Positions 29,693 through 64,000 of a stretch of 64,000 nucleotides of DNA are shown here, piece by piece (position 1 is the first letter of the stretch; every line of letters begins with the position of its first letter). The stretch is from Azonexaceae bacterium (GTDB lineage Bacteria; Pseudomonadota; Gammaproteobacteria; Burkholderiales; Rhodocyclaceae): the NCBI GenBank assembly GCA_013335535.1, contig JAAXVL010000010.1:1-64000 (forward strand). Reading direction: 5' to 3'. The position numbers and the translations under genes were made by a program. The notes below the pieces were generated by a model. The model did no database searches, was not told the origin of the DNA, and was given only the letters and a program-made list of their open reading frames with translations.

Positions 29693-29703
29693 CAAAACGG
29701 GAT

Positions 29704-31864: not shown

Positions 31865-31891
31865 GCTGTTTTCTCCCTGAAAGTTGATGAA

Positions 31892-33084: not shown

Positions 33085-33105
33085 GGAAATAGCTGCCCGC
33101 AGTGG

Positions 33106-33136: not shown

Positions 33137-33144
33137 TCATTGCC

Positions 33145-33423
33145 TCAAGCCAATCCGGCCAGGGCACCGCTCAATTGCCCGACGCTGCGCTTGCTGAAGA
33201 CGACGGGGACGTCCATGGCATCGGCCACTCGCCGAATCTTGCGGGCCAGACCGTGGTTGATCTGATCAACCATCACCACGACCACCCGCGTATCGACCGG
33301 GATGCTGCGATGACATTCACCGGGCTTGCGGCCGCTCCAGTGCCGTACCGGCTGATAGCCCTGCCCGGCCAGATAGTCGCGAAACGAATCGACCCGGTCA
33401 CCACCCACGATCAATGCAGCCAT
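33145..33423 (-). CDS. DUF2325 domain protein
   Basis: A 92-residue protein beginning MAALIVGGDRVDSFRDYLAG with HWSGRKPGECHRSIP (about 28-42) and VVVVMVDQINHGLARKIRRV, the pattern of DUF2325 proteins. AGGAGG lies directly upstream. Function is unknown; the family often sits near metal, redox or dinitrogen/sulfur genes. The conserved His and Cys may bind something, but nothing further can be said. Confidence 0.8.
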   Translation of the reverse strand: MAALIVGGDRVDSFRDYLAGQGYQPVRHWSGRKPGECHRSIPVDTRVVVVMVDQINHGLARKIRRVADAMDVPVVFSKRSVGQLSGALAGLA

Positions 33424-33593
33424 GACGCACCTCCTGTCTGATTACAGCCTCAATCTAGACAGGGTGGTACGGATGCGAAACGACTTCGTTCTTCCTTGCT
33501 AATCGCCGCTCATGGCATAAGCATTTGCCGAAAATCAGCAGCGCTTGAGGCGGCAGCCCCCGCTCACGCGAGGACTCCGGGAAGTGGTGCAGT

Positions 33594-38646: not shown

Positions 38647-39780
<1,134 letters not shown>

Positions 39781-40157
39781 GGCTCTTCTCTCTAAATGGG
39801 CGTTCGTTTTTTCCACTCCGGAAGCCGGACCCCGGACAAGCCCTGCCTGTCCCCGACTTAGTGGATTTGCATGCAGGTTAGCAATCCGCCCGGTCAGGCC
39901 AAACAACCGATTTCTGATAAGTATTTTCAACTTGTCATTTTTTCGGCTCGCCAGCGCCTTCGCCTGCTGCAAACGCAGCACGACAAGAGGCCATTTGCTG
40001 CCAGGCGAGCAGTGCCTGGCCGGCCAAAACAGCCCCGCCTGCAGCAGCCATCGGCAAAACCTTTTGCTTTCATGGTCTTGGCGCAGCTGGGCCGACAAGC
40101 CCGCCCTGGCATGGCTCCTGCGAATGAGCCTGGTTTGCCCGAAACCGCCGCCCATTG
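39781..40157. other. Divergent regulatory region between the sigma-54 activator and outer membrane factor genes
   Basis: 377 bases without a convincing gene. It contains an inverted repeat GCCAGGC-N7-GCCTGGC (40000-40020) about 90 bases upstream of a -24/-12 promoter (40107-40121), the usual distance for an enhancer site, and an AT-rich stretch with ATAAGT (39918-39950) that may hold the promoter of the activator gene. Confidence 0.6.
40107..40121 (+). promoter_or_regulatory. Sigma-54 (-24/-12) promoter of the outer membrane factor gene
   Basis: TGGCATGGCTCCTGC: the GG and GC elements are exactly 10 bases apart and match TGGCAYG-N4-TTGC at all but one core position. Predicted transcription start is about 20 bases before the ATG at 40158. 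Confidence 0.7.
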
Positions 40158-41621
40158 ATGAAACACCCGAAAACCCGCTCCCCGCTCGCCTGCACTCCCC
40201 TCGCCCTGACCATCGCCCTGACCCTTGGCGGCTGCGCACTGGGCCCGGATTTCGTGCGCCCAAGCATCAGCATCCCCGCCGAATTCCGAGAAGCTGCCGG
40301 CTGGAAGCAGGCCACGCCGGCCGATACCGTCAGCCACGCAGCATGGTGGGAACGCTACGGCGACGCGACGCTGAACGATCTGGCCCGGCGGGTCGACATC
40401 TCCAACCAGAACGTCGCCCAGGCGAACGCCCAATACCGTGCTGCCGCCGCGGCGCTCAGCGCCAGCCGCGCTGCCGGGCTGCCCAACCTCGGTGCCAGCG
40501 CCGGCCTGACGCGCAGCGAAGGCGTGACCGGCGCCACATCGACCACCTTCAACCCGCCGCGCACCATCGAGCGCATCGGCCTCAACAGCAGTTGGGAAAT
40601 CGACCTCTGGGGCCGCCTCGGGCGCAGCGTCGAAGCCGCCCGCGGTTCGCTCGCGGCCAGCGCCGCCGACCTCGCCGCGGCCCGCCTGAGCACGCAAGCC
40701 ACGCTGGCCCAGGCTTATTTCCAGCTGCGCATCAACGACGCCCAGCAACGCGTCCTGCAGCGCGCCATCACCGCCCAGCGCCGCTCGCACCAGATCACCT
40801 TCAACCGTCGCGAAGCCGGCATCGTCACCTCGGCCGATCTGGCCCAGGCCGAAGCCCAGCTCAAGACCACCGAAGCCCAGGCAATCGACCTCGGCGTCCA
40901 GCGCGCCCAGCTCGAACACCTGATCGCCCAGCTCATCGGCGAAATCCCCGGCCAGTTCCGGATCGCCATCGTCGACACGGTGCCAGCCCTGCCAGCGCAG
41001 CCGGTCGGCATTCCGTCCACCCTGCTCGAAGGTCGCCCCGACATTGCCGCCGCCGAACGCCGCGTTGCCGCTGCCAACGCCCAGATCGGTGTCGCCCAGG
41101 CCGCCTTCTTCCCCAACCTGACGCTCAGCGCCAGCGGTGGCTTCCAGAACGCCGGCCTGGGCGACCTCGTCACCTGGCCGCATCGCTTCTGGTCGCTCGG
41201 CCCGGCCATCGCGCTCAGCCTGTTCGACGGTGGCGCCCGCTCGGCCGCCAAGGAACAAGCCATCGCCAACTACGACCGCACCGTCGCCGGCTACCGCCAG
41301 AGCGTGCTGACGGCCTTCCAGGAAGTCGAAGACAACCTCGCGACCCTGCGCATCCTCGAAGAGGAAAGCGCCGTCCAGGCCCAGGCCCGGCGCGCCGCCA
41401 ACGAGTTCGAGCGCCTCACCAACAACCAGTACATGGCCGGCACCGTCAGCTTCCTCAATGTCGCCACGGCGCAAACCGCCTCGCTGAGCGCCGAGCGCAC
41501 CAGCCTCGACCTGCTCGGCCGGCAGCTCACAGCCAGCGTCGCGCTCAACAAGGCGCTCGGTGGCAACGACTGGACACTGGCCGGCGAAACGCTGGCCCGC
41601 CAGCAGAAAGCCGCCCCGTAA
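40158..41621 (+). CDS. RND-type outer membrane factor lipoprotein (NodT/OprM family)
   Basis: A 487-residue efflux outer-membrane channel. Signal peptide with lipobox LTLGGCALGPDFVRP (Cys about residue 25), then WWERYGDATLNDLARR and two internally similar helical halves ending SWEIDLWGRLGRSVEAARGS (about 148-167) and LSLFDGGARSAAKEQAIANY (about 354-373), as in NodT/OprM. It would form the outer-membrane duct of a tripartite pump, yet no membrane-fusion or inner-membrane RND gene adjoins it. A -24/-12 promoter lies just upstream. The true start may be the ATG at 40158; a TTG one codon earlier is possible. Confidence 0.9.
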   Translation: MKHPKTRSPLACTPLALTIALTLGGCALGPDFVRPSISIPAEFREAAGWKQATPADTVSHAAWWERYGDATLNDLARRVDISNQNVAQANAQYRAAAAALSASRAAGLPNLGASAGLTRSEGVTGATSTTFNPPRTIERIGLNSSWEIDLWGRLGRSVEAARGSLAASAADLAAARLSTQATLAQAYFQLRINDAQQRVLQRAITAQRRSHQITFNRREAGIVTSADLAQAEAQLKTTEAQAIDLGVQRAQLEHLIAQLIGEIPGQFRIAIVDTVPALPAQPVGIPSTLLEGRPDIAAAERRVAAANAQIGVAQAAFFPNLTLSASGGFQNAGLGDLVTWPHRFWSLGPAIALSLFDGGARSAAKEQAIANYDRTVAGYRQSVLTAFQEVEDNLATLRILEEESAVQAQARRAANEFERLTNNQYMAGTVSFLNVATAQTASLSAERTSLDLLGRQLTASVALNKALGGNDWTLAGETLARQQKAAP

Positions 41622-41657
41622 TCGGTGCTGCGTGGCCAGCAGCCGTGCCCCGCTGAC

Positions 41658-41673
41658 TGTTGCCCGGGCAACA
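41658..41673. promoter_or_regulatory. Candidate enhancer palindrome TGTTGCCCGGGCAACA
   Basis: A perfect 16-base palindrome 114 bases upstream of the -24 element at 41772. The same half-sites (TGTTGCC and GGCAACA) flank the hairpin at 44459-44497 upstream of another -24/-12 promoter. Confidence 0.5.
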
Positions 41674-41739: not shown

Positions 41740-41771
41740 CCTGAAGCCAACCGCCATCGCCTGGCACAGCC

Positions 41772-41787
41772 TGGCCTGATGGTTGCT
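41772..41787 (+). promoter_or_regulatory. Sigma-54 (-24/-12) promoter of the rhodanese-like/S41 unit
   Basis: TGGCCTGATGGTTGCT: correct 10-base spacing between GG and GC and a full TTGCT -12 element. About 90 bases upstream of the GTG start at 41878. Confidence 0.65.
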
Positions 41788-41877: not shown

Positions 41878-42318
41878 GTGAACATCGTCAGATCCTTCGT
41901 TTTCCTCGCCGCCAGCCTCGTCGCCTCGGCCTCCTTCGCCCAGCAGGCCGCCTATCAGCCGCCACCCTGGACCTACCAGACCAAGCAACTGAACCGCGCC
42001 GAAATCGACGCCCTGCTCGCCAAACCGCAACAGGTCGTCGTCCTCGACGTGCGTCGCCCCGACGAACTGATCAGCAAGGGCGCCTTCCCGGTCTATCTCA
42101 ACATCCAGACCAAGGAAGTAGAACAGAACCTCGGCTACATCCCCAAGGACCGCACTATCATCACCGTCTCCAACCGCGCCCACCGGGCCGGTGCCGTCGG
42201 CGATCTCCTGACCGCCAAGGGCTTCAAGGTGGCCGGTGCCGCCGGCTCTCTGGATTACGAAGACCAGGGCGGCAAGGTCGCCCGCATCCAGCCGCCCGCC
42301 CCCAAGCCGGCCAACTGA
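41878..42318 (+). CDS. Periplasmic rhodanese-like protein lacking the catalytic cysteine
   Basis: A 146-residue exported protein with signal peptide (to about residue 22, SASFA) and a rhodanese-like domain: LNRAEIDALLAKPQQVVVLD, VRRPDELISKGAFPVYLNIQ, and the active-site loop TIITVSNRAHRAGAVGDLL. Where active rhodaneses have C-x4-R, this protein reads S-N-R-A-H-R, so the catalytic cysteine is replaced and a binding or structural role is more likely. GTG start at 41878 with AGGA upstream. Followed by a protease gene after 99 bases, possibly co-transcribed. Confidence 0.75.
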   Translation: MNIVRSFVFLAASLVASASFAQQAAYQPPPWTYQTKQLNRAEIDALLAKPQQVVVLDVRRPDELISKGAFPVYLNIQTKEVEQNLGYIPKDRTIITVSNRAHRAGAVGDLLTAKGFKVAGAAGSLDYEDQGGKVARIQPPAPKPAN

Positions 42319-44458: not shown

Positions 44459-44497
44459 CTGTTGCCGGCGCAGCAATCGCTGCTCCGCCGGCAACAG
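44459..44497. promoter_or_regulatory. Long stem-loop with TGTTGCC/GGCAACA half-sites
   Basis: CTGTTGCCGGCG and CGCCGGCAACAG flank an inner GCAGC-AATC-GCTGC stem; 12-bp outer stem. Placed right after the protease stop and 96-134 bases before a -24/-12 promoter, so it may serve as terminator, enhancer site or both. Confidence 0.5.
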
Positions 44498-44592
44498 CCC
44501 AAAGCGGCGGCTAGCCACCCCGACATTCCCCCGCTCCCCGCCAGCCCGCTCTCCACCGTGATCTGACCGGGCAGACCAGGCACCCCGGCCGC

Positions 44593-44608
44593 TGGCACAC
44601 CTCCTGCA
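44593..44608 (+). promoter_or_regulatory. Sigma-54 (-24/-12) promoter of the metallo-beta-lactamase-fold gene
   Basis: TGGCACACCTCCTGCA: GG and GC 10 bases apart with TGGCAC and TGCA intact. Predicted start of transcription about 38 bases before the ATG at 44651. Confidence 0.72.
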
Positions 44609-44650: not shown

Positions 44651-46117
44651 ATGCGTCGCCCGACGACACCCCGACTGGCCCTGTTGGCCACCCTGCTCAC
44701 CACCGCCTTCGCCGCCCACGCCGCCTCCCTGCAGGAAGCCGCCGCCAGGCTGGCAGTCGACAAGACCCAGGCCATCGAATTCGCCGCTACCGGCCACTGG
44801 TTCCAGTTCGGCCAGGCACCCAACGTCAAGCAGCCCTGGCCGCGTTTCGATGTCCAGAAATACGTCGCCGACATCGACTACGCCAAGGGCGCCGCCCGCG
44901 TCCAGATCACCCGCCTGCAGGCCGACGACCCGCAGCGCCGGCGCCCGGCCCCGAGCACGCAATGGCTCGACCAGTACGTCAACGGCAAGCAAGCCTGGAA
45001 CCTGCCCCCGGTCAGCCAGCCGCAAACCGCCACGCCGCAGCCCGCCGCCGTCGAGGAACGTCAGGCCGAGATCATCTCCACGCCGCAAGGCTTCATCAAG
45101 GCCGCGCTGGCCAACCAGGCCACCAGCAAGCCGCTGAAAAACGGCGTCGAACTGCGCTTCACGGTCGACGGCAAATACCTGTATGTCGGCACCCTGAACG
45201 CCGCCAACGAAGTCGAAAAGATCAGCACCTGGATCGATAACCCGGTGCTTGGCGACACGCTACTGGAAACCGAATTCACCAAATACAAGGATTTCGGCAA
45301 CCTCCGCTTCCCGAGCGAGATCGTTCGCCTGCAAGGCGGCCACCCCGTCCTCGCGCTGCAGGTCAATGAAGTCAAGGTCAATCCCAGCATCGATCTGACG
45401 CCGCCCGACAGCGTCAAGAATGCCCAATCTGCGGCCATCACCGTCACCGCCGACAAACTGGCCGATGGCGTCTTCTACCTCACCGGCGGCACGCACCACA
45501 GCGTCGCCATCGAGCAGAACGACCACATCATCCTCGTCGAGGCACCGCTCAACGAGGCCCGCTCGCAGGCGCTCATCGCCAAGGTCGGCGAACTCTTCCC
45601 CGGCAAGCCGATCAATTACCTCGTCAATACGCACGTGCATTTCGACCATTCCGGCGGCCTGCGCACCTTCGTCGATGCCGGCGCCACCATCGTCACCCAC
45701 AAGCTGAACGCACCGTACTACCAGAAGATCTGGGCCAATCCGCACACGCTCAACCCGGACGCCCTGGCCCGCTCGAAGAAGACGCCGCGCATCGAAACCT
45801 TCGGCGACAAGCTTGTGCTCGGAGACAGCCACAAGGTCGAAATCCACAACATCGTCGACAGCGGCCACAACGACGGTTTTGCGCTGATCTATCTGCCCGC
45901 CGCGAAAATCCTCATCGAAGCCGACGCCTACACCCCAGCCGCCGCCAGCGCCCCGCTCCCGGCCTCTCCCAACCCGTACAGCGTCAACCTGTACAACAAC
46001 ATCCAGCGCCTGAAGCTCGACGTCGACAAAATCGCCGCCCTGCACGGCCCGCGTGTCGTTACCCTCAACGACCTGCGGGCGGCGATTGGGCTGGGAACGG
46101 TGGCCAGCGCGAAGTAA
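44651..46117 (+). CDS. Secreted metallo-beta-lactamase-fold hydrolase
   Basis: A 488-residue exported protein: signal peptide (to about residue 25, FAAHAA), an N-terminal domain to about 260 of unknown function, and a C-terminal metallo-beta-lactamase domain. The metal motif is HVHFDHSGG (about 332-340), with DSGHNDG (about 404-410) and a later acidic ligand LIEADAYTP. Substrate unknown. AGGAGG before the ATG and a -24/-12 promoter upstream place it in the candidate SfnR-like regulon. A strong terminator follows. Confidence 0.82.
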   Translation: MRRPTTPRLALLATLLTTAFAAHAASLQEAAARLAVDKTQAIEFAATGHWFQFGQAPNVKQPWPRFDVQKYVADIDYAKGAARVQITRLQADDPQRRRPAPSTQWLDQYVNGKQAWNLPPVSQPQTATPQPAAVEERQAEIISTPQGFIKAALANQATSKPLKNGVELRFTVDGKYLYVGTLNAANEVEKISTWIDNPVLGDTLLETEFTKYKDFGNLRFPSEIVRLQGGHPVLALQVNEVKVNPSIDLTPPDSVKNAQSAAITVTADKLADGVFYLTGGTHHSVAIEQNDHIILVEAPLNEARSQALIAKVGELFPGKPINYLVNTHVHFDHSGGLRTFVDAGATIVTHKLNAPYYQKIWANPHTLNPDALARSKKTPRIETFGDKLVLGDSHKVEIHNIVDSGHNDGFALIYLPAAKILIEADAYTPAAASAPLPASPNPYSVNLYNNIQRLKLDVDKIAALHGPRVVTLNDLRAAIGLGTVASAK

Positions 46118-53779: not shown

Positions 53780-54241
53780 TTATTGCACCCGGAAGTCGTC
53801 GTGGCAGGACTTGCAGTGGCGCGTCAGGTTTCCAAACTGGGTGCGGGTGGCTTCCTTGTCGCCGGTGGCGGCGACTTTGACGAGTTCGTTGGCGTCCTTG
53901 CGGAAGCCGGTGATGACCTCGCTCAGCTTGGCGGCCTGGGCGGGATCGACGGCTTCGGGTTTGGCCTTGCTGTCGTGGAAGCCGATGCCCTTGTCGGTGC
54001 CCGGAGCGAAGAAGGGGTTGAGGCCGGCGTTGGCGACGGACTGGATGACCGTCGCGGCGGCGAGCACCTGCTCCTTGTCGTACTGGCCGTCGAGCAGCGC
54101 CTTGACTTTACCGCAGTGCCAGCCGATGACGCGGAAGGAGGCCTGGCGGATCTTGATCAGATCTTCCGGCTTGGCCTGGGCGTAGGCGGTGGCGGTGACA
54201 ACGAGGGCGAGAAAGGGGAGCAGCGCGATTTTAAATTTCAT
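53780..54241 (-). CDS. Cytochrome c-prime family protein
   Basis: A 153-residue exported four-helix-bundle cytochrome: signal peptide ending TATAYAQA, RQASFRVIGWHCGKVKALLD, and a C-terminal heme motif RHCKSCHDDFRVQ (CxxCH near residue 145), as in cytochrome c-prime/c556. It is the last gene of the DUF1501/DUF1549 operon. Its ribosome-binding region and start codon lie inside a dispersed repeat. Confidence 0.88.
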   Translation of the reverse strand: MKFKIALLPFLALVVTATAYAQAKPEDLIKIRQASFRVIGWHCGKVKALLDGQYDKEQVLAAATVIQSVANAGLNPFFAPGTDKGIGFHDSKAKPEAVDPAQAAKLSEVITGFRKDANELVKVAATGDKEATRTQFGNLTRHCKSCHDDFRVQ

Positions 54242-54263
54242 GGATTTTTCCGGTTGACCGTGG
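54226..54263 (-). repeat. Dispersed repeat covering the start of the cytochrome c-prime gene
   Basis: Minus strand: CCACGGTCAACCGGAAAAAT then CCATGAAATTTAAAATC. The repeat spans from the intergenic gap across the ATG into the first codons (MKFKI), and supplies the GGAAAAA that must act as Shine-Dalgarno. Confidence 0.8.
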
Positions 54264-54273
54264 AAAGGAGAAT

Positions 54274-54861
54274 TCAGCGGCTGGCAGCCAGCCCCTGAAC
54301 GAGGGTGAGCGCCTTGTCGACGTTTTCGGTGGGCGAAACCCCACCGACCACGCCGACAACGCGCCCGTCACTGCCGACCACGAAGGTGGTGCGTTCGGCA
54401 AAGTCGTGGTCGATGTCGTTGCCGCGCGTGTCCTTGCGCCCGGCGACGGCACTCCGGACATTGACGCCGTAGGACTTGGCGATCTTGCCGTCGGCATCCG
54501 AAGCGACGGCAATCTTGCCGGCGCAGAAGTCGGGATCGGCCGAGAAGCTCTTGAGGCGGGCAATGCTGTCGAACGAGACGCCGACGACCTGCGCGCCAGC
54601 GGCCTTGAAGCGCTCGTTCTTCTCGGCGAAGGTATGGGCCTGGATGTTGCAGCCGTTGGTGTAGGCCGAGGGGTAGAAGTACACGACGACCGGGCCTTTC
54701 TTGAGGTTGTCGCGCAAACCAAAGGTGAAGGCGTTGCCGTTGAGTGCCGCTGCGGCCTGGAAATCCGGCGCGCTGTCACCTTCGTTCAAGGCCAGCGCCG
54801 GGCCGGCGAGGACCATGCCGAGCAGGCCGGCGGTCAGGCTGCGTTTGATGGCGTTTTTCAT
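54274..54861 (-). CDS. Periplasmic peroxiredoxin (AhpC/TSA, PrxQ-like)
   Basis: A 195-residue exported thiol peroxidase: signal peptide to about residue 24, then NEGDSAPDFQAA and YFYPSAYTNGCNIQAHTFAE (about 61-80) with peroxidatic cysteine in the T-x-x-C position (YTNGC), followed by VVGVSFDSIARLKSF. A second cysteine (PDFCAGK) may resolve the sulfenate. It reduces peroxide formed in the periplasm, fitting an operon full of heme proteins. Confidence 0.88.
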   Translation of the reverse strand: MKNAIKRSLTAGLLGMVLAGPALALNEGDSAPDFQAAAALNGNAFTFGLRDNLKKGPVVVYFYPSAYTNGCNIQAHTFAEKNERFKAAGAQVVGVSFDSIARLKSFSADPDFCAGKIAVASDADGKIAKSYGVNVRSAVAGRKDTRGNDIDHDFAERTTFVVGSDGRVVGVVGGVSPTENVDKALTLVQGLAASR

Positions 54862-54894
54862 GTTGGGTCTCCTGGGGAAAAGGCACATTGGGGG

Positions 54895-55557
54895 TCACAG
54901 TCCGGCGACGTAAGCCGCCAGCTGATCGATATCCTTGTCGGACAGTTGCCGGGTGATGGCGTTCATGACGCCGCCCTGGCTGTTCTTGCGTTCGCCTGTC
55001 CGCCATTCGGTGAGCTGCTTCGCGACATAACGACGGTGCTGACCGGCCAGCCGCGGATAGGCGGCGTCGCCCGCCTGCTGGCCCTGCCCCGCTTCGCCGT
55101 GGCAACCGACGCAGGCGGGAATACCGCGCGCCGCGTCGCCCTGGGTGAACAGCCGGCGGCCATGCTCTGCTTCGCCATCCTTTTCGCCGACCACATTCTG
55201 GCTGGCGAAATAGGCCAGGATGTCGGCCGCATCGCGGTCGTTTAGGCTGCGCGCCATGATGAACATGCTGTCGTTCTGACGCGCCCCGCTGCGAAAGTCG
55301 CGAATCTGCTTCAGCAGATATGCTGGCAGCTGCCCGGCCAGACGCGGAAACTTGCCAATGTTGCCGATGCCGTCTTCGATATCGTTGGCGTTGCCGTCAT
55401 GGCCGTGGCACTCCTGGCAACGCTCGTCCTCCGCCTTGAGCTTGCCGGCAACCGGATCGCCCTTGAACGCAGCGGCGCTCCGGCTGCCTTGCTGGGCGAA
55501 GACCGGCGCAGTCAGCGTGACGGCCAGCGCCGCCATGATCAGGGTCTGAAGCCGCAT
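54895..55557 (-). CDS. Diheme cytochrome c4-type protein
   Basis: A 220-residue exported protein with two class I cytochrome domains: heme motifs ERCQECHGHDGNAND (about 46-60) and PACVGCHGEAGQGQ (about 147-160), each followed by a YPRLAGQ/FPRLAGQ motif and a methionine region (MFIMARSL, GGVMNAITRQL). The pattern fits cytochrome c4, an electron carrier to terminal oxidases. Signal peptide to about residue 21. Confidence 0.92.
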   Translation of the reverse strand: MRLQTLIMAALAVTLTAPVFAQQGSRSAAAFKGDPVAGKLKAEDERCQECHGHDGNANDIEDGIGNIGKFPRLAGQLPAYLLKQIRDFRSGARQNDSMFIMARSLNDRDAADILAYFASQNVVGEKDGEAEHGRRLFTQGDAARGIPACVGCHGEAGQGQQAGDAAYPRLAGQHRRYVAKQLTEWRTGERKNSQGGVMNAITRQLSDKDIDQLAAYVAGL

Positions 55558-55563
55558 GCCGCC

Positions 55564-55944
55564 TCAGGATTTCTTGTAGAAGTTGTGGCACGACTTGCAA
55601 GCTCGCGACAGATCGGACGCCATGACATTGGCGCCATCGAAATCCTTGCTGGCCACCGACTTGTCGATATCGGCAATGAGTTGCCGGCTCTTTTTAGTGA
55701 TGTCCAGGGCATCCTGAGCATCGCCCTTGGTCGCGTAGAAGGCCTCGACCTGTGCGAACATCTCGGACAACTCCTTGGTATCGATGGAGACGCCCTTGGT
55801 GTCCTTGATCGCGATGTGGTTGGCGAGGCTCTTGTTGCTGTCCTCGACGCTTCTCATGAAATCGTCGTCGATCTCGATCTGGGCGGAAATGACGCTGCCG
55901 GCTACGGCCAGCAGGGTCGCCCCCAGAATGACTAACTTGCGCAT
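55564..55944 (-). CDS. Small c-prime-like monoheme cytochrome
   Basis: A 126-residue exported protein: signal peptide to about residue 20, helical bundle, and a C-terminal heme motif SRACKSCHNFYKKS (CxxCH). Resembles c-prime-type cytochromes, shorter than the family's usual 150. Six bases separate its stop from the diheme cytochrome start. Start at 55944 gives the signal peptide. Confidence 0.85.
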   Translation of the reverse strand: MRKLVILGATLLAVAGSVISAQIEIDDDFMRSVEDSNKSLANHIAIKDTKGVSIDTKELSEMFAQVEAFYATKGDAQDALDITKKSRQLIADIDKSVASKDFDGANVMASDLSRACKSCHNFYKKS

Positions 55945-55960
55945 TGCAACTCCTTGATAA

Positions 55961-56884
55961 TCAGCGCGGGGTTTTAAGGTCGGCGTACAGCGACTTGAGG
56001 AAGCGCTCGGCGCTTTGGGCGCCTTGCGGCACGCTGGCATCGAAATCGGCGGTCGGCCTAGCGGCGATCACCTCGTCGACGCTCTTGCCCTGCGCTACCA
56101 GCGGCGCCACGCGGTCGCGAATGGCGATCAGCTGGTCACGATGAAGAATCAGCGCAGCCTTGTCGCTGACCGCGCCGTGGCCCGGCACGATTTTCGTTTT
56201 CGGGCCGGCCAGCGCGATGGTTGCGTTGAGGCCGTCGATGGTCCCCTGCACGCTGCCGCCATTGGCCAGGTCGATGACCGGGTAGCCGACGCTTCGGAAA
56301 TAGTCGCCAACCACCAGAATATCGCGTTGCAGGAAATGGACGAGCACGTCGCCATCGGTATGGGCGCGCGGGATGCTGGTGACGCGAATGGTCTCGCCAT
56401 TCAGGTGAAAGCTCACCGGGCCGTCGAAGGTGACCACCGGCAGCGCGGCGGCTGGCGCCGGTGCGGGCTTGGTGCCGTCGGGACGGGCGACCGGATTCTG
56501 CAGGCCGGCACGCACGCGATCGTGGGCAAAAATGGTCGCGCCAAGGGCGGCGAAATTGGCATTGCCGCCGGTGTGGTCACCATGAAGATGGGTGTTGACG
56601 ACGAAGCGGATCGGCTTGTCGGAGAAGCTACGAATCGCCGCGACCAGTTTCTCGGTCAGCGGGGCGAACTGCGTATCGACCACGAAAACGCCGTCGTTGC
56701 CGGCCAGCACGCTGACCGTGCCGCCCTGCCCGTCGAGGGTATAAAAATTGTCGGCGAGCTTGTTGGTCTTGATCTCGACCTTGCTGTAATCGGTGGCCTG
56801 CTGGGCGTATGCCGCGGGGGCCATGAGTGCTCCGGCAACCGTAAAGGCCAGGGCCAGCGCGAGGGTCAGGGTAGTTTGTTTCAT
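55961..56884 (-). CDS. Periplasmic metallo-beta-lactamase-fold hydrolase
   Basis: A 307-residue exported protein: signal peptide to about residue 27, then the metallo-beta-lactamase motif NTHLHGDHTGGNANF (about 97-111), a later metal histidine in PRAHTDGDVLVHF (about 173-185) and PGHGAVSD. It resembles SoxH-like and subclass-B3-like hydrolases. Placed between DUF1501 and cytochrome genes, it probably acts on the same periplasmic substrate set (inference). Confidence 0.87.
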   Translation of the reverse strand: MKQTTLTLALALAFTVAGALMAPAAYAQQATDYSKVEIKTNKLADNFYTLDGQGGTVSVLAGNDGVFVVDTQFAPLTEKLVAAIRSFSDKPIRFVVNTHLHGDHTGGNANFAALGATIFAHDRVRAGLQNPVARPDGTKPAPAPAAALPVVTFDGPVSFHLNGETIRVTSIPRAHTDGDVLVHFLQRDILVVGDYFRSVGYPVIDLANGGSVQGTIDGLNATIALAGPKTKIVPGHGAVSDKAALILHRDQLIAIRDRVAPLVAQGKSVDEVIAARPTADFDASVPQGAQSAERFLKSLYADLKTPR

Positions 56885-56957
56885 TTTTTCTTCTTCACAT
56901 GACGCGGCGACCGCCCGTCATCCGGGAAGCCGCCGCGGCGTGGTGGTTACGGGTTGA

Positions 56958-58412
56958 TCAGGCGATCAGCTCCTTGATGACCTTGCCGTAGACCACGGTC
57001 GGACGTTCGGAACGGCCGTTGTTGAGGAAGGTCGTCTTGAGATGGTCGAGGCCGAGCAAATGCAACACGGTGGCGTGCACGTCATAGGTATCGACTGCCA
57101 GATCCTTGTCGGCGATCTGCAGGCCGATGTCGTCAGTCGCGCCATAGGTGGTGCCAGCCTTGACGCCGCCGCCCGCCATCCACTGGGTGTAGCCCCACGG
57201 GTTGTGATCGCGGCCGCTGCCGGATTCGCCCCACGAGGTACGGCCGAATTCCGATGCCCAGACGATCAGCGTGGTGTCGAGCAGGCCACGCGCCTTGAGG
57301 TCGGCGAGCAGGCCGGCAATCGGTTTGTCGACCATGCGGGCCTGAACACCGTGGTTGCCGTCGAGGTCGTTGTGGGCGTCCCAGCTGCGACGCTCCTGGT
57401 CGGAAATATTCTCCGGGTGACCGGAGACGACCTGAATGAAGCGGACACCACGTTCGACCAGGCGACGAGCGCGCAGCAGCACTTCGCCGTAGCTCTGGCT
57501 GGTCTTGTCGTCGATGCCGTACAGCTTCTTGGTCGCTTCCGATTCCTGGCTGAGATCGACGGCTTCCGGCGCGGCACGCTGCATGCGGTCGGCCAGTTCG
57601 TAGGATTGCAGGCGGGCACGCAGTTCGGTGTCTTCCGGACGGCGGGCGGCACCGATGTTGTTGAGCGTCTTGAGCAGGTCGAGCGAACCGCGTTGCTGGG
57701 CGGCGGTGCGCAGGTCCGGACGGTCGAGGTAAAGGATCGGTGAATCGCCCGGACGGAACGGCGTGCCCTGATAGACGGCGGGAAGGAAGCCGGAGCTCCA
57801 GTTGACCGAACCGGCCTGCGGTTCGCGGTCGCCGTTGTAAAGCACGACATAGGACGGCAGGTTGGGATTGTTCGAACCGAGCGCCCAGTTGACCCATGCG
57901 CCGAGCGACGGACGACCCGGATTCACGTCACCGGTGTTGAGCTTGAGAATCGAGATGTCGTGCGTCGCGCCAACGGTGACGCTGGACTTGATGAAGGCCA
58001 TCTTATCGGCGTGCTCGGCCAGGTTGGGCAGCAGGTTGGAGAACCATGCACCGCTTTCGCCATGCTGCTTCCAGGTCCGCTGGTTGGACACATAGAGCTT
58101 GCCGACACCGCCCTGGGTACTGGTCTTGATACCCTTGAGGAAGGAGGCTGGCACTGGCTGGCCGGCCAGCTTGACGAGCTCCGGCTTGTAGTCGAAGAGG
58201 TCGAGGGTCGAAGGCGCACCGTTCTGGTGGAGCCAGATCACCGACTTGATCTTGCTCGGGAAATGCGGTGCCTTGGGGGCCAGCGGGTCGGCCAGTTCGG
58301 CGGCGAGCGCCGAGCCGATGAAGCCGACGCCGGGGATGAACCCGGCTGCGGCAGCCGCGCCGCCCAGGCCGAGGCTGGTCTGGATCAGAAATTTACGACG
58401 ATTGATGGACAT
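56958..58412 (-). CDS. DUF1501 protein (Tat-exported, sulfatase/alkaline phosphatase-like fold)
   Basis: A 484-residue protein with a twin-arginine signal (NRRKFLIQTSLGLGGAAAAA, about 4-23). DUF1501 belongs to the alkaline phosphatase-like superfamily. Typical segments here are SVIWLHQNGAPSTLDLFDYK (about 58-77) and LIVWASEFGRTSWGESGSGR then DHNPWGYTQW near 390-420. It is paired with a DUF1549/DUF1553 gene, the arrangement common in Planctomycetes. A sulfatase-like role is plausible by fold but unproven; the formylglycine C/S-x-P-x-R motif was not seen. Confidence 0.87.
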   Translation of the reverse strand: MSINRRKFLIQTSLGLGGAAAAAGFIPGVGFIGSALAAELADPLAPKAPHFPSKIKSVIWLHQNGAPSTLDLFDYKPELVKLAGQPVPASFLKGIKTSTQGGVGKLYVSNQRTWKQHGESGAWFSNLLPNLAEHADKMAFIKSSVTVGATHDISILKLNTGDVNPGRPSLGAWVNWALGSNNPNLPSYVVLYNGDREPQAGSVNWSSGFLPAVYQGTPFRPGDSPILYLDRPDLRTAAQQRGSLDLLKTLNNIGAARRPEDTELRARLQSYELADRMQRAAPEAVDLSQESEATKKLYGIDDKTSQSYGEVLLRARRLVERGVRFIQVVSGHPENISDQERRSWDAHNDLDGNHGVQARMVDKPIAGLLADLKARGLLDTTLIVWASEFGRTSWGESGSGRDHNPWGYTQWMAGGGVKAGTTYGATDDIGLQIADKDLAVDTYDVHATVLHLLGLDHLKTTFLNNGRSERPTVVYGKVIKELIA

Positions 58413-58444
58413 GTTTTTTTCCTTGTTCGTGGTCTGTTGGAGCG

Positions 58445-60793
58445 TTAGAAGCGATAGGCGAAGTCGTTGGAGTTGGCCACGGCGTGCACCAGATCGACGA
58501 AGGCTGCGGCGCGCACCGGGTTGAGGCCGGCCGGATCCTTGACACCAATGGGCACGGCGGCCTGGAAGGTGCCGCCACCCGCCAGCTTCTGCTGGACCGT
58601 AGCTTCGCCCTTGACCAGGAAGTCCTTGAGCGCTGCCTTCTCTTCCTTGCTCGGTTCGCGCGAGAAGAGGATCTGGTACAGGCGGCTGATCTGGGCCGAT
58701 TCGTCCTTGCCGGCTTCATTGATGACGCGACCGGCCAGCGCTTGCGACCAATTGACGATGATGTCGCTGTTGAACAGGGTCAGCGCCTGCAACGGCGTCG
58801 TCGTCACGTCACGCTTGTGGTGGGCCTGCGACGGGTTGGCCGGGTCGAAGTTCTGGAGCAGCGGATACGGCAGGCTGCGGCGGCTGAAAATGTAGACGCT
58901 GCGGCGGTTCCAGTCGTCCTTGTCCTTCGAGATGGTCCATGCGCGGTTGCCGTCAAAGTCGGCCGGGCCAAGATTCTGGGTGCTGGCGACCGGCGGGAAG
59001 ACGGACGGACCGCCGACCACGTCGTTGAGCTGACCGGAGGCGTAGAGTAGCGCATCACGGATTTCCTCGGCTTCCAGACGCTTGCGCGGATAGACGGCGA
59101 GCAGCTTGTTCTGCGGATCGACCTTGGCCACTTCCGGACGTTCGGCAGAAGACTGACGATAAACGCTGGAAAGCAGAATGTCGCGATGCAGCTTCTTGAT
59201 GCTCCAGCCCTTCTCGACGAAATTGGCCGCCAGGTAATCAAGCAGTTCAGCATTGGTCGGCTTGTCGCCGGCACGGCCGAAATCGCTCAGGCTCGGGACG
59301 ATACCCTTGTCGAAATACTGGCTCCACACGCGGTTCACATAAACACGGGCGGTCAGCGGGTTGGTCGGGCTGGCCAGCCAGCCAGCCAGGGCCGAGCGGC
59401 GACCGGACGAATTGGCCGTCGGCTTGATCTCGACCTTGTCGCCGCCCCAGAGCGTCGGGATGGCGGGCTGGACTTCCTCGAGCGGACGCTCGTGGATACC
59501 GGCGAAGCGGACGAAGGTCGGCGGCGAATCGGTGTGACCCAGTTCGGTCGCCGTCGTGTAGAACTGCGAACCGCCATTCGGACGCTGGTCGTCAAACTTG
59601 CGCAGTTCCTTCTGCAGGCGGTCGTATTCCTTCCAGGCCGCAACCTTGTCCGGCGAGTGATCCTCGCGCTCCTTGCTTTCGGCGGCGAGGCGCAGGTAGC
59701 CGGCAACGCCGTCGCCAGTCTCGGCAACGACCGTCTTGTGGCGGTGGTTAACCCAGCGGTCCAGCGCGTTCCAGTCCTTTTCGGCCTTGAAAATCGAGTC
59801 GCGGCTGTCGGTCAGGTAGCGTTCCTTCTGGTATTTGACGCCGACTTCGCGGTACTGGTCGAGGATCTGCTTCTGGGCATCGCGAACGCCCTTGGTCACT
59901 TCCTGATAACGCGCGCGCTGTTCGGCAAACTTCTTGTCCCAGGCGCTTTCCGTGCCCTTGGCCAGCGGCGTGCGCCAGTCGAAGGAGGTGTTGGCGAAGA
60001 AGGCCTGCAGCGAGAAGTAATCCTTCTGCGTCAGCTTGTCCGACTTGTGGTTGTGGCAGCGAGCGCAACCAGTGGTCGAGGCGAGGAAGGTTTCGCCGAT
60101 GTTGTCGGTGATGTCGGTCGTGATCTGGTATTTGCGTTGCACCAGATCGCGGGAATTGGAGTTGTCAGGGTAGTTGGCCAGGTAGCCGGTGGCGATCTTG
60201 GCCTCCTGGCTGTTCGGGTAGAGCTCATCGCCGGCCAGCTGCTCCTTGATGAAGCGGTCGTACGGCTTGTCCTGGTTGAAGGCGGTGATGACGTAATCGC
60301 GGTAACGCCAGCTATTGGCGCGCGTCTGGTCGTTCTGGAAGCCGGAGCTGTCGGCGTAGCGGGCCAGGTCGAGCCAGCGGCGGCCCTGGCGTTCGCCGTA
60401 ATGATGCGAGGCGAGCAGACGGTCGACGAGCTTCTCGTAGGCATCCGGCGACTTGTCGTTCACAAAGGTCTTGACCTCTTCCGGCGTCGGCAGCAACCCC
60501 CAGGCATCGAGCGTGGCGCGGCGGATGAAGGTGGCGCGGTCGGCATCACCGGACGGCTTGAGGCTGTTGGCTTCCAGTTGCGCCAGGATGAAGGCGTCGA
60601 TCGGTGTGCGCACCCAGCCCTTGTTGGCGACGGCTGGCACGGCAGGCTTCTGGACGACCTCGTAGGGAGACCATTTCCTGGCCGCCTTGGCGACGACCGC
60701 CTCCGGGCTGGCGCTCTTGTCGGCATCGGCCGCGATCGCAAACACGCTCGTGAAGCACGAGAGCACCGCGAGATATGCAATTTTCTTCTTCAT
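58445..60793 (-). CDS. DUF1549-DUF1553 protein with c-type heme motif
   Basis: A 782-residue exported protein (signal peptide to about residue 22). The DUF1549 part carries FIRRATLDAWGLLPTPEEVK (about 88-107), RWLDLARYADSSGFQNDQTR and a CxxCH heme motif TGCARCHNHKSDKLTQKDYF (about 241-260). The DUF1553 part carries NPLTARVYVNRVWSQYFDKG and IKKLHRDILLSSVYRQSS. Such proteins abound in Planctomycetes, usually next to DUF1501 proteins, with unknown reactions. First gene of a seven-gene operon, 89 bases downstream of a -24/-12 promoter. Confidence 0.88.
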   Translation of the reverse strand: MKKKIAYLAVLSCFTSVFAIAADADKSASPEAVVAKAARKWSPYEVVQKPAVPAVANKGWVRTPIDAFILAQLEANSLKPSGDADRATFIRRATLDAWGLLPTPEEVKTFVNDKSPDAYEKLVDRLLASHHYGERQGRRWLDLARYADSSGFQNDQTRANSWRYRDYVITAFNQDKPYDRFIKEQLAGDELYPNSQEAKIATGYLANYPDNSNSRDLVQRKYQITTDITDNIGETFLASTTGCARCHNHKSDKLTQKDYFSLQAFFANTSFDWRTPLAKGTESAWDKKFAEQRARYQEVTKGVRDAQKQILDQYREVGVKYQKERYLTDSRDSIFKAEKDWNALDRWVNHRHKTVVAETGDGVAGYLRLAAESKEREDHSPDKVAAWKEYDRLQKELRKFDDQRPNGGSQFYTTATELGHTDSPPTFVRFAGIHERPLEEVQPAIPTLWGGDKVEIKPTANSSGRRSALAGWLASPTNPLTARVYVNRVWSQYFDKGIVPSLSDFGRAGDKPTNAELLDYLAANFVEKGWSIKKLHRDILLSSVYRQSSAERPEVAKVDPQNKLLAVYPRKRLEAEEIRDALLYASGQLNDVVGGPSVFPPVASTQNLGPADFDGNRAWTISKDKDDWNRRSVYIFSRRSLPYPLLQNFDPANPSQAHHKRDVTTTPLQALTLFNSDIIVNWSQALAGRVINEAGKDESAQISRLYQILFSREPSKEEKAALKDFLVKGEATVQQKLAGGGTFQAAVPIGVKDPAGLNPVRAAAFVDLVHAVANSNDFAYRF

Positions 60794-60881
60794 GAACCAC
60801 TCCAAACGAGATATCAAAAAACCACCCCAAGGCCACCCGGCACCTGACAGGCGGCCCGGATGATCGGCTGGCATCTGTTCA

Positions 60882-60896
60882 GCAACCGTCATGCCA
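60882..60896 (-). promoter_or_regulatory. Sigma-54 (-24/-12) promoter of the DUF1501/DUF1549 operon
   Basis: Minus strand TGGCATGACGGTTGC, followed by T: exact 10-base spacing and full TTGC -12 element. 89 bases before the DUF1549 ATG. Confidence 0.75.
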
Positions 60897-61346
60897 CGTC
60901 GAAAATCGATGCCGAACCAGCATGGAAATCCGGCAAAAAAATATTCCAACAAATTGATTAAATTGAATTAAATATTTCGGCGCAGCTAATCGATGGCAAC
61001 ACCCTGGCGACCGGGCGCTCGGCACCGGGCTGCTTGTACGGCAACAGCAATCACCCGCTTCTGCTTCCCGGGAAACACCTGAGTTGCATTTGCCAGCACC
61101 CCGCCGCGCCATGAAAGCGGCAGCGCACAAACCGCGGAACCCCACGCTGCCCGGGCTGCAAAAACAGATTTGGAATTTGGCCGACATTTCCGGTTGACCG
61201 TGGAAGCCCTGCCCGCAGCCGCCCGCTCAATTACCGAAGCCCGGACAGCCATTCCCTGCTGCATACGAAGCAGCGCTGTCTCGTGCGGTGCACCAACCCG
61301 TCCATGCCAAAACCCAATAACCACAATAAATCAGTGGTTTATTGCT
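60897..61346. other. Divergent regulatory region between the DUF1549 operon and the porin
   Basis: About 450 bases between two divergent -24/-12 promoters. It contains an imperfect palindrome TGCTTGTACGGCAACAGCA (61031-61049), whose right half matches the TGTTGCC/GGCAACA sites seen near 41658 and 44459, an AT-rich tract at 60940-60980, and a dispersed repeat (61165-61203). No gene seen. Confidence 0.6.
61165..61203 (-). repeat. Dispersed repeat, intergenic copy
   Basis: Minus strand: CCACGGTCAACCGGAAATGT then CGGCCAAATTCCAAATCTG; one of the best copies, in the divergent promoter region. Confidence 0.83.
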
Positions 61347-61361
61347 TGGCACGGTCTGTGC
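61347..61361 (+). promoter_or_regulatory. Sigma-54 (-24/-12) promoter of the porin gene
   Basis: TGGCACGGTCTGTGC: matches TGGCACG-N4-TTGC with one difference and correct spacing. About 100 bases before the porin start. The strongest of the five sites in the -24 half. Confidence 0.78.
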
Positions 61362-61461
61362 CATTGGACTACCAGCAACCAGGCGCATTTTTTGAGCGCC
61401 GGCGAGCAAGACGATCAACAGGGCGGCATGCCGTCACATCAATGACCGGGAGTAACACGTA

Positions 61462-62958
61462 GTGAACCATCCAAGAAAAACAGTGCTGGCTGTCGCCATC
61501 GGGGCAGCCCTTTTGAGCCTGGCGGGTAGCGCCAGTGCCGCAGCCCCCAGTAACGAAGAGCTTCTCAAGCAACTTTCCGCGCTCAAGGCCACCGTCGAAT
61601 CCCTGCAGAAGCAGGTCAGGGAACAGGGCGACGCCCTCGAAAAGACTCGCGAGAATATTCCCCAGGGCGCCGAAATCGCCACCACGCAGGACGTCGAAGG
61701 GGTGCGTTCGCAACTGGAGGATTACAAGTACGACTCGGCGCGCAACCGCGAATACAAGACGGCGCTCTCCTCGCGCGGCCTGACCATCGGCGGGACGCTG
61801 ACCGGCAGTTACGCCAGTTCGACCGAGGCCAGTGCTTCTACCGCCAATAACCCGCGTGGTGAAGCGGCGGAAACCTCCTTCGGCGTCGCTGCGACGCTGT
61901 CCTTCGCCGGCAACCTCTATCGCGACTACGCCGAGGGACGCAATCTGGACTACCGCCTGGCCTTCGCCTACAGCAATCCAAAACTGGCCAATAACGGTTC
62001 AACCAACACCTCAGGCCAGGGCGACAGCGTCGTGCGCATGACCGACGCCTACATCCAGTACAAGGTGTTGCCCGACACCGGCGCGCTGGAAGAACCAAAG
62101 CTGACGGCCACCTTCGGCCAGCAGAAGATCCCGTTCGGTCTTGAAGGTCAGGTTTCCGATGAACTGAAGCCGACCGTGTCGACCGCCCAGTTCCTCGGTG
62201 AATCGGCGCTCAAGAACATCGGCCAGCGCCAGATCGGCCTGATCTTCCGCGGCGATCTGTGGCCGAACGCCGACTACGGCTTCAACTATCGTGCCCCCAT
62301 CGTCGAGTACGCCTTCGGCGTCGTGAATGGCAATGGCGCCAACACGGCCGACGACAATTCCCGCAAGGACTATCTGGGCCGCATCACCTTCACGGTTCCC
62401 ATTGACTACAACAGCTGGTTCCGCGAACTGAAATTCGGCCTGTCGTATTACGACGGCCGCAAGATCCTGACCAATAACGCCGCGACTCCCGGCCTGGTCA
62501 TCGATGCCGGCAAATCGGTTCGCCGCGGCCTCGACATTTCGTACAACCACAACCCGATCGGGATTACCTACGAACTGGCGGATGGTGCCGACGACGAACT
62601 GCTGACCGCCGCCCAGGCTGTCACCAACAAGAACACCAAGCGCGTCAGCAGGCGCGGCCAGGTCCTGACCCTGTTCTACAACTTCGGCGACATTGCCCAG
62701 TGGTCGAAGAACCTCAACCGCGTCGGCAAGTTCGACGATTACTGGCCGACCACCTCGCAGGTCTATTACCGCTACGACACCTGGGATCAGAACCGTGCTG
62801 TCAGCGGCGACACGAGCCTGAAGCAGACCATCGGCTACAACCTGTTCTTCGCCGAAACCACCAAATTCCAGATCGGCGCAACCCGGACGCAATACGACAA
62901 GGGTCTGGCCAAGCCGAATGCGTGGGATATCACCGCCCAATTCCAGTACGGCTTCTGA
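61462..62958 (+). CDS. Outer membrane porin with N-terminal coiled coil
   Basis: A 498-residue exported protein: signal peptide to about residue 26 (SLAGSASAA), a coiled-coil stretch NEELLKQLSALKATVESLQK then QVREQGDALEKTREN (about 31-65), and a beta-barrel with alternating aromatic strands ending in ITAQFQYGF, the terminal phenylalanine recognised by BAM. Resembles DcaP/OprP-type porins that carry a coiled-coil domain. GTG start at 61462, GGGAG 9 bases upstream. Lies before a binding-protein gene, so it may admit that ligand. Confidence 0.85.
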   Translation: MNHPRKTVLAVAIGAALLSLAGSASAAAPSNEELLKQLSALKATVESLQKQVREQGDALEKTRENIPQGAEIATTQDVEGVRSQLEDYKYDSARNREYKTALSSRGLTIGGTLTGSYASSTEASASTANNPRGEAAETSFGVAATLSFAGNLYRDYAEGRNLDYRLAFAYSNPKLANNGSTNTSGQGDSVVRMTDAYIQYKVLPDTGALEEPKLTATFGQQKIPFGLEGQVSDELKPTVSTAQFLGESALKNIGQRQIGLIFRGDLWPNADYGFNYRAPIVEYAFGVVNGNGANTADDNSRKDYLGRITFTVPIDYNSWFRELKFGLSYYDGRKILTNNAATPGLVIDAGKSVRRGLDISYNHNPIGITYELADGADDELLTAAQAVTNKNTKRVSRRGQVLTLFYNFGDIAQWSKNLNRVGKFDDYWPTTSQVYYRYDTWDQNRAVSGDTSLKQTIGYNLFFAETTKFQIGATRTQYDKGLAKPNAWDITAQFQYGF

Positions 62959-62985
62959 CCCGCCCGCACCAACCGAAAGCACATC

Positions 62986-64000
62986 ATGAAAAAATTCGTA
63001 TCACTCATTGCCACCGCCCTGATCGCCGTCGGCCTGCCGCTGGCGGCCCAGGCGCAGGAAAACCCCAAAACCATCCGCATCGCCTTCTCGAGTGCCGGCG
63101 TCGGCGGCAAGCCGGCCGCTGCCTCCGGCCTGCTGGCCACGGCCCACCAGCGCGGCATCCTCGAAAAGGAATTCGCCAAGGACGGCATCAAGGTCGAATG
63201 GACTTTCTTCGTCGGCGCGGGCCCGGCCACTAACGAGGCGCTGGCCCTCAAAAAAATCGACTTCGCGACGCAGGGCGACCTGCCACTCGTCGTCGCCCGC
63301 GCCAACGGCCTGCGCACCCGCATCCTGCTCACCGACTCGCGCTTCAGCCGCAACTACGTCGTCGTGCCGACCGCCTCGACCATCCAGACGCTCGAAGACC
63401 TGCGTGGCAAGAAGATCACCGTGCAGAAGGGCACCGCCGGCCAACTGACCCTCAACCGCCTGCTCACTCAGGTCGGCCTGAAAGAGAGCGATCTCAAGGT
63501 CATCGACATGATCAGCGATTCGCAAAAGGCCGCGCTGTCGACCGGCGACGTCGATGCCGCCATCCAGTCGTCGACCGACCTCGTCGTCCGTGGTCTGGTT
63601 CGTCGTATCTACAAGATCGAAGACCCGAAACTGCAGGCGCCGTCGCAAGTCTGGGTGGCCGAGGAATTCGAAGCCAAGTATCCGCACATCGTCCAGCGCT
63701 TCGTCACCGCCCTGCTCCGCGAATCGGTCTGGGCCGTCGATGAGAAGAACCGCGACGAGCTGTTCCGCCTGTGGTCGAAAACCGGCAATCCGTATTCCGA
63801 CTATAAGGAAGACTTCAAGGGCTGGGCGCTGCGTGACCGCCTGAATCCGCTGATCGACGAGTACTACACGAGCAGCCTCAACAAATCGATCGCCGAAGTG
63901 AAGCAATTCCGCTTCGTCCGCCGCGATGTGACGGCCGATGGCTGGATCGAGCCGAAGTACCAGCAGGCCGCCCTCAAGGAACTGAAACTCGAAGGCTTTT
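62986..64000 (+). CDS. ABC substrate-binding protein, sulfonate/nitrate/taurine class (truncated by window edge)
   Basis: At least 338 residues, open at the right edge. Signal peptide MKKFVSLIATALIAVGLPLA (ending AAQAQ), then TIRIAFSSAGVGGKPAAASG, and the NMT1/SsuA-like core with LKKIDFATQGDLPLVVARAN (about 84-103) and DLRGKKITVQKGTAGQLTLN. It is not closely similar to the binding protein at 12317. With the porin 27 bases upstream it forms an outer membrane-periplasm uptake route; permease and ATPase genes are expected to the right. Confidence 0.87.
   Translation, partial: MKKFVSLIATALIAVGLPLAAQAQENPKTIRIAFSSAGVGGKPAAASGLLATAHQRGILEKEFAKDGIKVEWTFFVGAGPATNEALALKKIDFATQGDLPLVVARANGLRTRILLTDSRFSRNYVVVPTASTIQTLEDLRGKKITVQKGTAGQLTLNRLLTQVGLKESDLKVIDMISDSQKAALSTGDVDAAIQSSTDLVVRGLVRRIYKIEDPKLQAPSQVWVAEEFEAKYPHIVQRFVTALLRESVWAVDEKNRDELFRLWSKTGNPYSDYKEDFKGWALRDRLNPLIDEYYTSSLNKSIAEVKQFRFVRRDVTADGWIEPKYQQAALKELKLEGF

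Follow-up and report, generated by a model that had tools for sequence, protein, structure and literature searches.

SfnR and sigma-54 reportedly control an organosulfur regulon that includes sfnFG and msuEDC, and sulfate-ester uptake in Pseudomonas putida is the task of AtsRBC/SftP. In the present study, an exported gene cluster of an Azonexaceae bacterium is compared with these systems. The cluster is built on a DUF1501 protein and a PSCyt2+PSD1 (DUF1549/DUF1553) protein, and lies in the window, as the whole analysed stretch of 64,000 nucleotides is termed here (positions 1-64000 of a contig, C55 in the analysis, in a genome of 4.25 Mb). Coordinates follow the numbering of the window and, beyond 64 kb, that of the contig. 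Planctomycete-type cytochromes of freshwater Verrucomicrobia, whose functions are unknown, often have sulfatase genes in the same neighbourhood (PMC5615132), and Rhodopirellula baltica carries 41 copies of each domain (PMC2754498). In the parts of these two papers that bear on the families, no reaction is assigned to DUF1501 or DUF1549/DUF1553 proteins, and no paper on the function of either family was found in a literature search.

We lean toward the reading that the cluster belongs to a sulfur-scavenging island under an SfnR-type sigma-54 activator, in which the exported DUF1549/DUF1553 and DUF1501 proteins would act in the periplasm to free the sulfur of organosulfur compounds, with sulfate esters as the most likely kind. 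Regulation, gene neighbours and predicted fold point to exported sulfur scavenging, for which the simplest scheme would be that a sulfo group is freed from sulfate esters or transferred from them. At the level of DNA sequence, the linkage of five genes, the sigma-54-type sites, and a palindrome with its place before msuE and sfnG operons are plain, and sulfur control of the island is well supported by these features; its substrate, catalytic residue and electron path are ones that we infer.

Relatives of DUF1501 were sought in one genome per species; 388 were found, and the best 80 were kept as loci, which span Zoogloea, Massilia, Duganella, Aquabacterium, Gallionella, Cellvibrio, Methylococcales, and other beta- and gammaproteobacteria. 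The genes in these loci were called mechanically, and the counts are not independent because the loci share ancestry. Five core genes are co-linear on one strand in 56 of the 66 loci with sufficient flanking DNA, the DUF1549/1553 gene lying upstream of DUF1501, and cyt3, the diheme cytochrome and the peroxiredoxin downstream; nine of the ten loci that break this order lack one core gene nearby, and one lacks three. On the minus strand of the window, the core consists of the PSCyt2+PSD1 protein (58445-60793; PF07583 and PF07587, one CxxCH, start inferred), DUF1501 (56958-58412; PF07394 at 442.7 bits, twin-arginine start), the small exported protein cyt3 with a C-terminal CxxCH and no Pfam match (55564-55944; start inferred), a diheme cytochrome c (54895-55557; PF00034, two CxxCH), and an exported AhpC/TSA peroxiredoxin (54274-54861; PF00578, start inferred). 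A metallo-beta-lactamase-fold protein (55961-56884; PF00753) and a cytochrome c' (53780-54241; PF01322) lie on the same strand. A preliminary description of this DNA had listed these seven minus-strand genes and held that a lack of joint conservation would speak against its reading. All seven, at 53780-60793, are borne out by gene calls and Pfam, with the starts of cyt3 and the DUF1549 gene moved to near 55944 and near 60793, respectively; signal peptides of window proteins were assessed by eye. The joint conservation holds for five of them: cytochrome c' is present in 41 of the 80 loci, and the metallo-beta-lactamase, which gave more than 150 bits in just one of 80, was rejected as a core part and is a local addition.

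Tandem second DUF1549-DUF1501 copies occur in the Zoogloea-type loci L010-L015, where cyt3 accompanies the second copy, and in Methylobacillus (L082). We also note that an exported family with no Pfam match and a weak LenA/LenB endostatin-like match adjoins the cluster in 33 of 80 loci (e.g. L045 15010-15732).

The system is accessory and patchy in distribution. DUF1501 of the window is 97% identical to a Ferribacterium limneticum protein, and an orthologue is present in three of 60 related genomes; 36 of these 60 are of the same genus, the own genome included, and hold two of the three orthologues, again counting the own. Ten further related genomes gave partial matches at E 7e-9 or weaker.

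The preliminary description had placed canonical -24/-12 promoters in both directions from the divergent intergenic region. Both sites are real: a sigma-54-type site of 15.0 bits precedes the DUF1549-DUF1501 operon (60881-60897, minus strand), and one of 13.7 bits precedes the porin-importer operon (61346-61362, plus strand), the latter being near-consensus with GTGC at -12. Further plus-strand sites lie before an efflux gene (40106-40122; 11.8 bits), a rhodanese-like gene (41771-41787; 13.1 bits) and the MBL2 gene (44592-44608; 16.0 bits). Among the loci, a sigma-54-type site of at least 12 bits precedes the DUF1549 gene in 65 of 89 places and the porin in 14 of 18; for DUF1501, cytochrome c' and the diheme cytochrome, the counts are 0 of 90, 0 of 43 and 5 of 74, respectively.

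A palindromic dyad, TGYTG-N6-CARCA, was noticed in the DNA preceding the sigma-54-type sites. Since it was derived from the DNA upstream of the DUF1549 gene and the porin, the counts for these two genes, 45 of 88 (reversed pattern as control, 1) and 11 of 18 (0), are training counts. Exact dyads also lie upstream of the TonB receptor in 31 of 54 cases (reversed 0), which often rest on intergenic DNA common with the DUF1549 gene, of the rhodanese gene in 14 of 33 (0), and of MBL2 in 5 of 15 (0). The corresponding counts are 0 of 88 for DUF1501, 0 of 64 for cyt3, 1 of 75 for the diheme cytochrome, 1 of 78 for the peroxiredoxin, 1 of 42 for cytochrome c', and 1 of 15 for the activator. Other open frames have an exact dyad upstream in 40 of 596 cases (reversed 3); these 40 include a cysteine-synthase-like gene in L073 and, in six loci, TonB genes, and also short frames in the intergenic DNA of the DUF1549 gene or of the receptor.

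In the window, exact dyads occur between the activator and the efflux gene (39965-39980, with a second, one-mismatch site at 39996), as a pair before the rhodanese-like gene (41626 and 41658, within 41626-41673), and before MBL2 (44460-44475, with a second, one-mismatch site at 44481); an efflux gene with an upstream dyad is also found in L005. These four exact dyads, all in the companion block described below, compare with 0.22 expected, and none of 100 shuffles reached four. Contig C55 carries five exact dyads between 39.9 and 82.7 kb, the fifth of which heads a run of SGL, DLH, b561, c', PepSY and RND genes. With a sigma-54-type site of at least 11 bits required at 40-220 bp, all five qualify: the site lies on the correct side at a distance of 98-164 bp, and another dyad, with no more than one mismatch, is found near each of them. 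Among the other 29 exact dyads of the genome, two have a sigma-54 site, one has a second dyad and none has both, and 28 lie inside open frames of at least 150 codons. In 100 simulated sequences, combined dyad and sigma-54 sites numbered 0.02 on average, with a maximum of one.

The link to sulfur comes from the activator and from the same palindrome in known organosulfur operons. The activator (38647-39780, minus strand; Pfam Sigma54_activat and HTH_8, start inferred) is SfnR-like and without a receiver domain, and its existence, as stated in the preliminary description, is confirmed by Pfam and by its identity to relatives; searches used 38716-39795, which omits the last ~23 residues. It is 58-62% identical to activators beside DUF1501 clusters and beside msuE/sfnG. 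Its nearest plasmid relatives (58-60%) lie beside sfnG, msuE and an SfnB gene in Burkholderia pyrrocinia and, in Pseudomonas aeruginosa, at the end of an msuE-ssuD operon. The palindrome precedes msuE-sfnG-sfnB in the former species and msuE in the latter: the 17-kb stretch L100 has exact dyads at just two places, both between msuE and the regulator, and the 11-kb stretch L101 has a single one, before msuE. Sigma-54 sites of 18.0 and 18.9 bits follow the dyads of these stretches. The L101 dyad matches the window dyad at 41658 letter for letter. In the own genome, none of the SsuD, MsuD, SfnG and TauD families, the usual desulfonating enzymes of the SfnR type, was found. There is no TauD match, the sole luciferase-family (PF00296) match is of the MsnO8 kind, and the one ordinary sulfatase-family gene lies on another contig; the island is therefore the only likely SfnR target set found in the genome. 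The organosulfur part of the preliminary description is supported as far as sulfur control is concerned, by the activator, the site common with msuE/sfnG operons, the sigma-54 sites and the negative search for the usual desulfonating enzymes.

The system had been confined in that description to 53780-64000. The genes there are real, and the system is larger, extending over the window from 38.6 to 64 kb and reaching contig 82.5 kb. The activator, the rhodanese-like protein and MBL2, which belong to families found next to DUF1501 in other genomes, lie in the window at 38.6-46.1 kb. This companion block contains, on the plus strand, an outer membrane efflux protein (OEP; 40155-41621, PF02321), an exported rhodanese-like protein (41878-42318; start inferred), and MBL2, an exported metallo-beta-lactamase-fold protein (44651-46117; Pfam Lactamase_B, start inferred). 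The rhodanese family is found in 33 of 80 loci; the window protein shares 54-58% identity with it and scores 20.1 against Pfam Rhodanese, just below the cut-off of 22.2.

Among 250 sampled genomes of the order, four have DUF1501 (E <=1e-60), two of them of one genus, and eight have MBL2, its identity being at least 59% in the same four genomes and 39-44% in the other four. SfnR-like activators (E <=1e-105) occur in 18 of the 250, all four DUF1501 genomes included; the chance of this is ~2 in 100,000 by a hand calculation that ignores kinship. Among the 60 related genomes, MBL2 is near full-length in the same three as DUF1501 (in one as two adjoining pieces), a fourth contains 46 residues of it (80% identity), and only weak matches came from another 12. 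The 46-residue stretch (L119, G017:C8:934203-934340) lies in a genome that lacks an orthologue of DUF1501 and appears to be the remnant of a lost island.

The sixth operon is the minus-strand run from contig 82.5 to 73.1 kb, with SGL, DLH (twin-arginine start), cytochrome b561, cytochrome c', PepSY, and an RND pump with its adaptor. A sulfate importer adjoins it, and genes of these families adjoin DUF1501 in other genomes too, SGL being present in 25 and DLH in 14 of the 80 loci.

Divergent from the core lie a porin-like outer membrane protein (61462-62958, plus strand), named by eye from its sequence and without a Pfam match, and an NMT1-family SsuA-like binding protein (62986-64000, plus strand; PF09084), which runs on for 50 bases beyond the window to contig 64050 and is followed by two permeases and an ATPase up to 66.6 kb. 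The proposed uptake link is borne out by the loci: the porin, found in 18 of them, is divergent from and adjoins the DUF1549 gene in 17, at 307-1145 bp. In 61 long loci, porin plus binding protein occur in 14, a TonB receptor in 34, both in none, and neither in 13. In the gammaproteobacterial loci L054, L056, L061, L062 and L065, the divergent operon consists of a TonB receptor, an arylsulfotransferase and a sulfatase in place of porin and importer; L081 has an arylsulfotransferase and L016 a sulfatase. Pfam, run on one sulfatase and two arylsulfotransferases of the divergent operons, returned PF00884 for the former and PF05935 and PF14269 for the latter, the remaining neighbours being named via clustering.

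The sulfonate element of the preliminary description is backed solely by the class to which the binding protein belongs. This protein scores above the Pfam NMT1 cut-off and gives 138 bits against the SsuA model TIGR01728, below the curated NCBIfam cut-off of 163.5; its designation as SsuA proper was rejected. Besides its own genome, one of the 60 related genomes has an orthologue (84%), the next matches being 32-37% identical. Four plasmid stretches hold relatives at ~40%. These stand beside luciferase-type flavin monooxygenase and acyl-CoA dehydrogenase family genes in L102 and L103, and beside TauD/TfdA genes in L103, L104 and L105. The gap between importer and RND genes (contig 66.8-70.9 kb) holds a DUF4118 histidine kinase and, by eye, a response regulator and a Kup-like potassium transporter.

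The model predicted for DUF1501 has an alkaline-phosphatase/sulfatase superfamily fold, which speaks rather for a hydrolase or transferase. The window protein contains no cysteine; any cysteine occurs in 7 of 41 aligned rows, a loose [CS]x[PA]xR pattern anywhere in 2 of 41, and SEFG stands where neighbouring sulfatases show SDNG. An ordinary formylglycine sulfatase was rejected on these grounds, as neither the Cys/Ser of a CxPxR-type motif nor the full D-N pair of metal ligands is present. A Protein Data Bank sequence search with DUF1501 gave two weak matches, to a designed protein (0.0022) and to a sulfatase (0.023). Both families are numerous, and at least 7,999 DUF1501 relatives were scored in a separate search. 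The DUF1549/DUF1553 protein carries both Pfam domains, and its CxxCH is kept in 41 of 41 aligned rows. The same sequence search with this protein found nothing at E 0.1, and Foldseek with its model (predicted local distance difference test, pLDDT, 81) gave no match at E 0.001, using the whole chain only, so that a known domain may be missed.

According to the scheme that we favour, sulfur limitation would cause the activator to bind paired TGYTG-N6-CARCA sites and to fire six promoters, those of the efflux gene, the rhodanese gene, MBL2, the DUF1549-DUF1501 operon, the porin-importer operon, and the SGL-DLH-b561-c'-PepSY-RND operon. The substrate would enter via the porin, or via the TonB receptor in relatives, and DUF1501 and MBL2, joined in some relatives by sulfatase and arylsulfotransferase, would liberate the sulfo group or pass it on. 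The hemes may link the organic moiety to the respiratory chain by electron transfer, while the peroxiredoxin would clear peroxide and the RND pump would rid the cell of organic waste. Uptake of the sulfur-bearing product would fall to the SsuA-like importer or to the sulfate importer nearby. A more specific version is offered tentatively and stands below an even chance: DUF1501 may be a cysteine-free sulfohydrolase or sulfotransferase of the alkaline-phosphatase superfamily that forms a redox complex with the heme protein DUF1549/DUF1553; organosulfur compounds would then be stripped outside the cytoplasm without a flavin monooxygenase, a TauD-type dioxygenase or a formylglycine sulfatase, and the planctomycete pairs would be relatives acting on sulfated glycans.

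Several observations weigh against periplasmic scavenging from sulfate esters under SfnR-type control. The palindrome alone is not enriched in the own genome, with 34 exact dyads and 37 of the reversed pattern, and was rejected as a regulon finder by itself, being informative only with a sigma-54 site. The window promoters of the DUF1549 gene and the porin have one-mismatch dyads only (61031 and 61257, within 61031-61272). Exact dyads are rare before SGL (1/25), DLH (0/14), PepSY (0/12, reversed 1), RND (2/13) and neighbouring sulfatase (0/6) genes, and none was found in the stretches checked at the sulfate and NMT1-type importers of the window itself. The single ordinary sulfatase gene lies outside the island; DUF1501 lacks the formylglycine cysteine and one sulfatase metal ligand, and its model has a pLDDT of just 68. 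Finally, and against a general sulfur role of the two families, five plasmid DUF1501-DUF1553 loci outside the subfamily have no sulfatase in their annotated stretches. Glycan genes (pectinolytic or other) or fucose transport genes occur close to three of them, the fourth is beside SusC/SusD-type uptake genes and a SUMF1-family gene, and the fifth is planctomycete (Singulisphaera), among unrelated genes. This Singulisphaera plasmid (L125, 54 kb) has two tandem DUF1549/1553-DUF1501 pairs and a further DUF1501 gene.

It is unlikely, and yet deserves weight, that periplasmic oxidation comes first, with the DUF1549/DUF1553 heme protein oxidising a sulfonate, thioether or sulfo-sugar, exported SGL/DLH opening a lactone, electrons leaving via the cytochromes, the product being imported and desulfonated in the cytoplasm, and DUF1501 as an accessory. 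The conserved hemes, the recurrence of SGL and DLH and the SsuA-like importer would suit such a route, and a lactonase of the SGL class acts on sulfo-gluconolactone; however, the genome offers no SsuD, MsuD, SfnG or TauD family member for the cytoplasmic step, SGL and DLH are not core, and the arylsulfotransferase and sulfatase neighbours point to sulfate esters. The oxidative process of the preliminary description is not borne out: hemes and a peroxiredoxin are present, yet no feature indicates which way electrons would flow, and the fold of DUF1501 speaks rather for a hydrolase or transferase. We regard as improbable that the activator is an SfnR relative responding to another signal and that the island serves to oxidise glycans or aromatic compounds and merely shares the DNA site. 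The glycan surroundings of the plasmid pairs, SfnR-like activators in 14 of the 246 order-sample genomes without DUF1501, and the aromatic catabolic genes of the window would accord with this, whereas the letter identity with the msuE site, the sulfur-type importer and the sulfatase and arylsulfotransferase neighbours, and the activator in 4 of 4 DUF1501 genomes argue against it. A chance neighbourhood of unrelated exported genes, suggested by the local metallo-beta-lactamase at 55961 and the patchiness within the genus (2/36), is scarcely credible given the order kept in 56 of 66 beta- and gammaproteobacterial loci, the common upstream sites, and the co-occurrence of DUF1501, MBL2 and activator.

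Elsewhere in the window, sulfur amino acid genes occupy 22453-35798, with a Cys/Met-type pyridoxal phosphate enzyme, O-acetylhomoserine sulfhydrylase, a class-V aminotransferase/desulfurase-like protein, a hexapeptide-repeat protein, PALP (cysteine-synthase-like), and an OsmC-YcaO fusion; no exact dyad lies within. At 10767-14972 lie a sulfate-binding protein and the binding protein, ATPase and permease of a second NMT1/SsuA-like importer, with no palindrome in the stretches checked. The sulfate-binding protein, this importer and the cysteine genes were rejected as regulon members, as seven other stretches checked have no site. Aromatic catabolism is represented at 133-5801 and 15990-20166 by acetaldehyde dehydrogenase, an HsaA-like monooxygenase, 3-carboxyethylcatechol dioxygenase, CoA transferase subunits and a PaaK-like ligase.

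From this analysis, one DUF1501-DUF1549/DUF1553 subfamily gains a regulon, a predicted fold class, a constant set of partners and a handful of candidate sulfur sources. Should the sulfur role be true, an exported heme-linked branch would be added to organosulfur scavenging, along with a DNA motif for seeking SfnR regulons in other genomes.

Compared with the known systems, DUF1501 shares its predicted fold (model pLDDT 68) with the alkaline-phosphatase superfamily of sulfatases, PafA, ENPPs and LtaS, and differs in being cysteine-free and in having SEFG rather than the SDNG of neighbouring sulfatases. The SsuA-like binding protein with two permease units, and the TonB receptor as alternative, resemble AtsRBC/SftP by description; in contrast, the genome of the window has no TauD-family (AtsK-type) dioxygenase. 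Domains and gene order are those of the planctomycete-type PSCyt2/PSD1 and DUF1501 pairs on the Singulisphaera plasmid, whereas the island subfamily has fixed cytochrome and peroxiredoxin partners and an SfnR-type switch, neither of which is present in the Singulisphaera stretch. With the SfnR regulon, the island shares a related activator (58-60%) without a receiver domain, and the palindrome and sigma-54-type sites as before msuE and msuE-sfnG-sfnB. The putative targets differ: those of SfnR are cytoplasmic flavin monooxygenases, whereas those of the island are exported heme, hydrolase-fold and uptake proteins.

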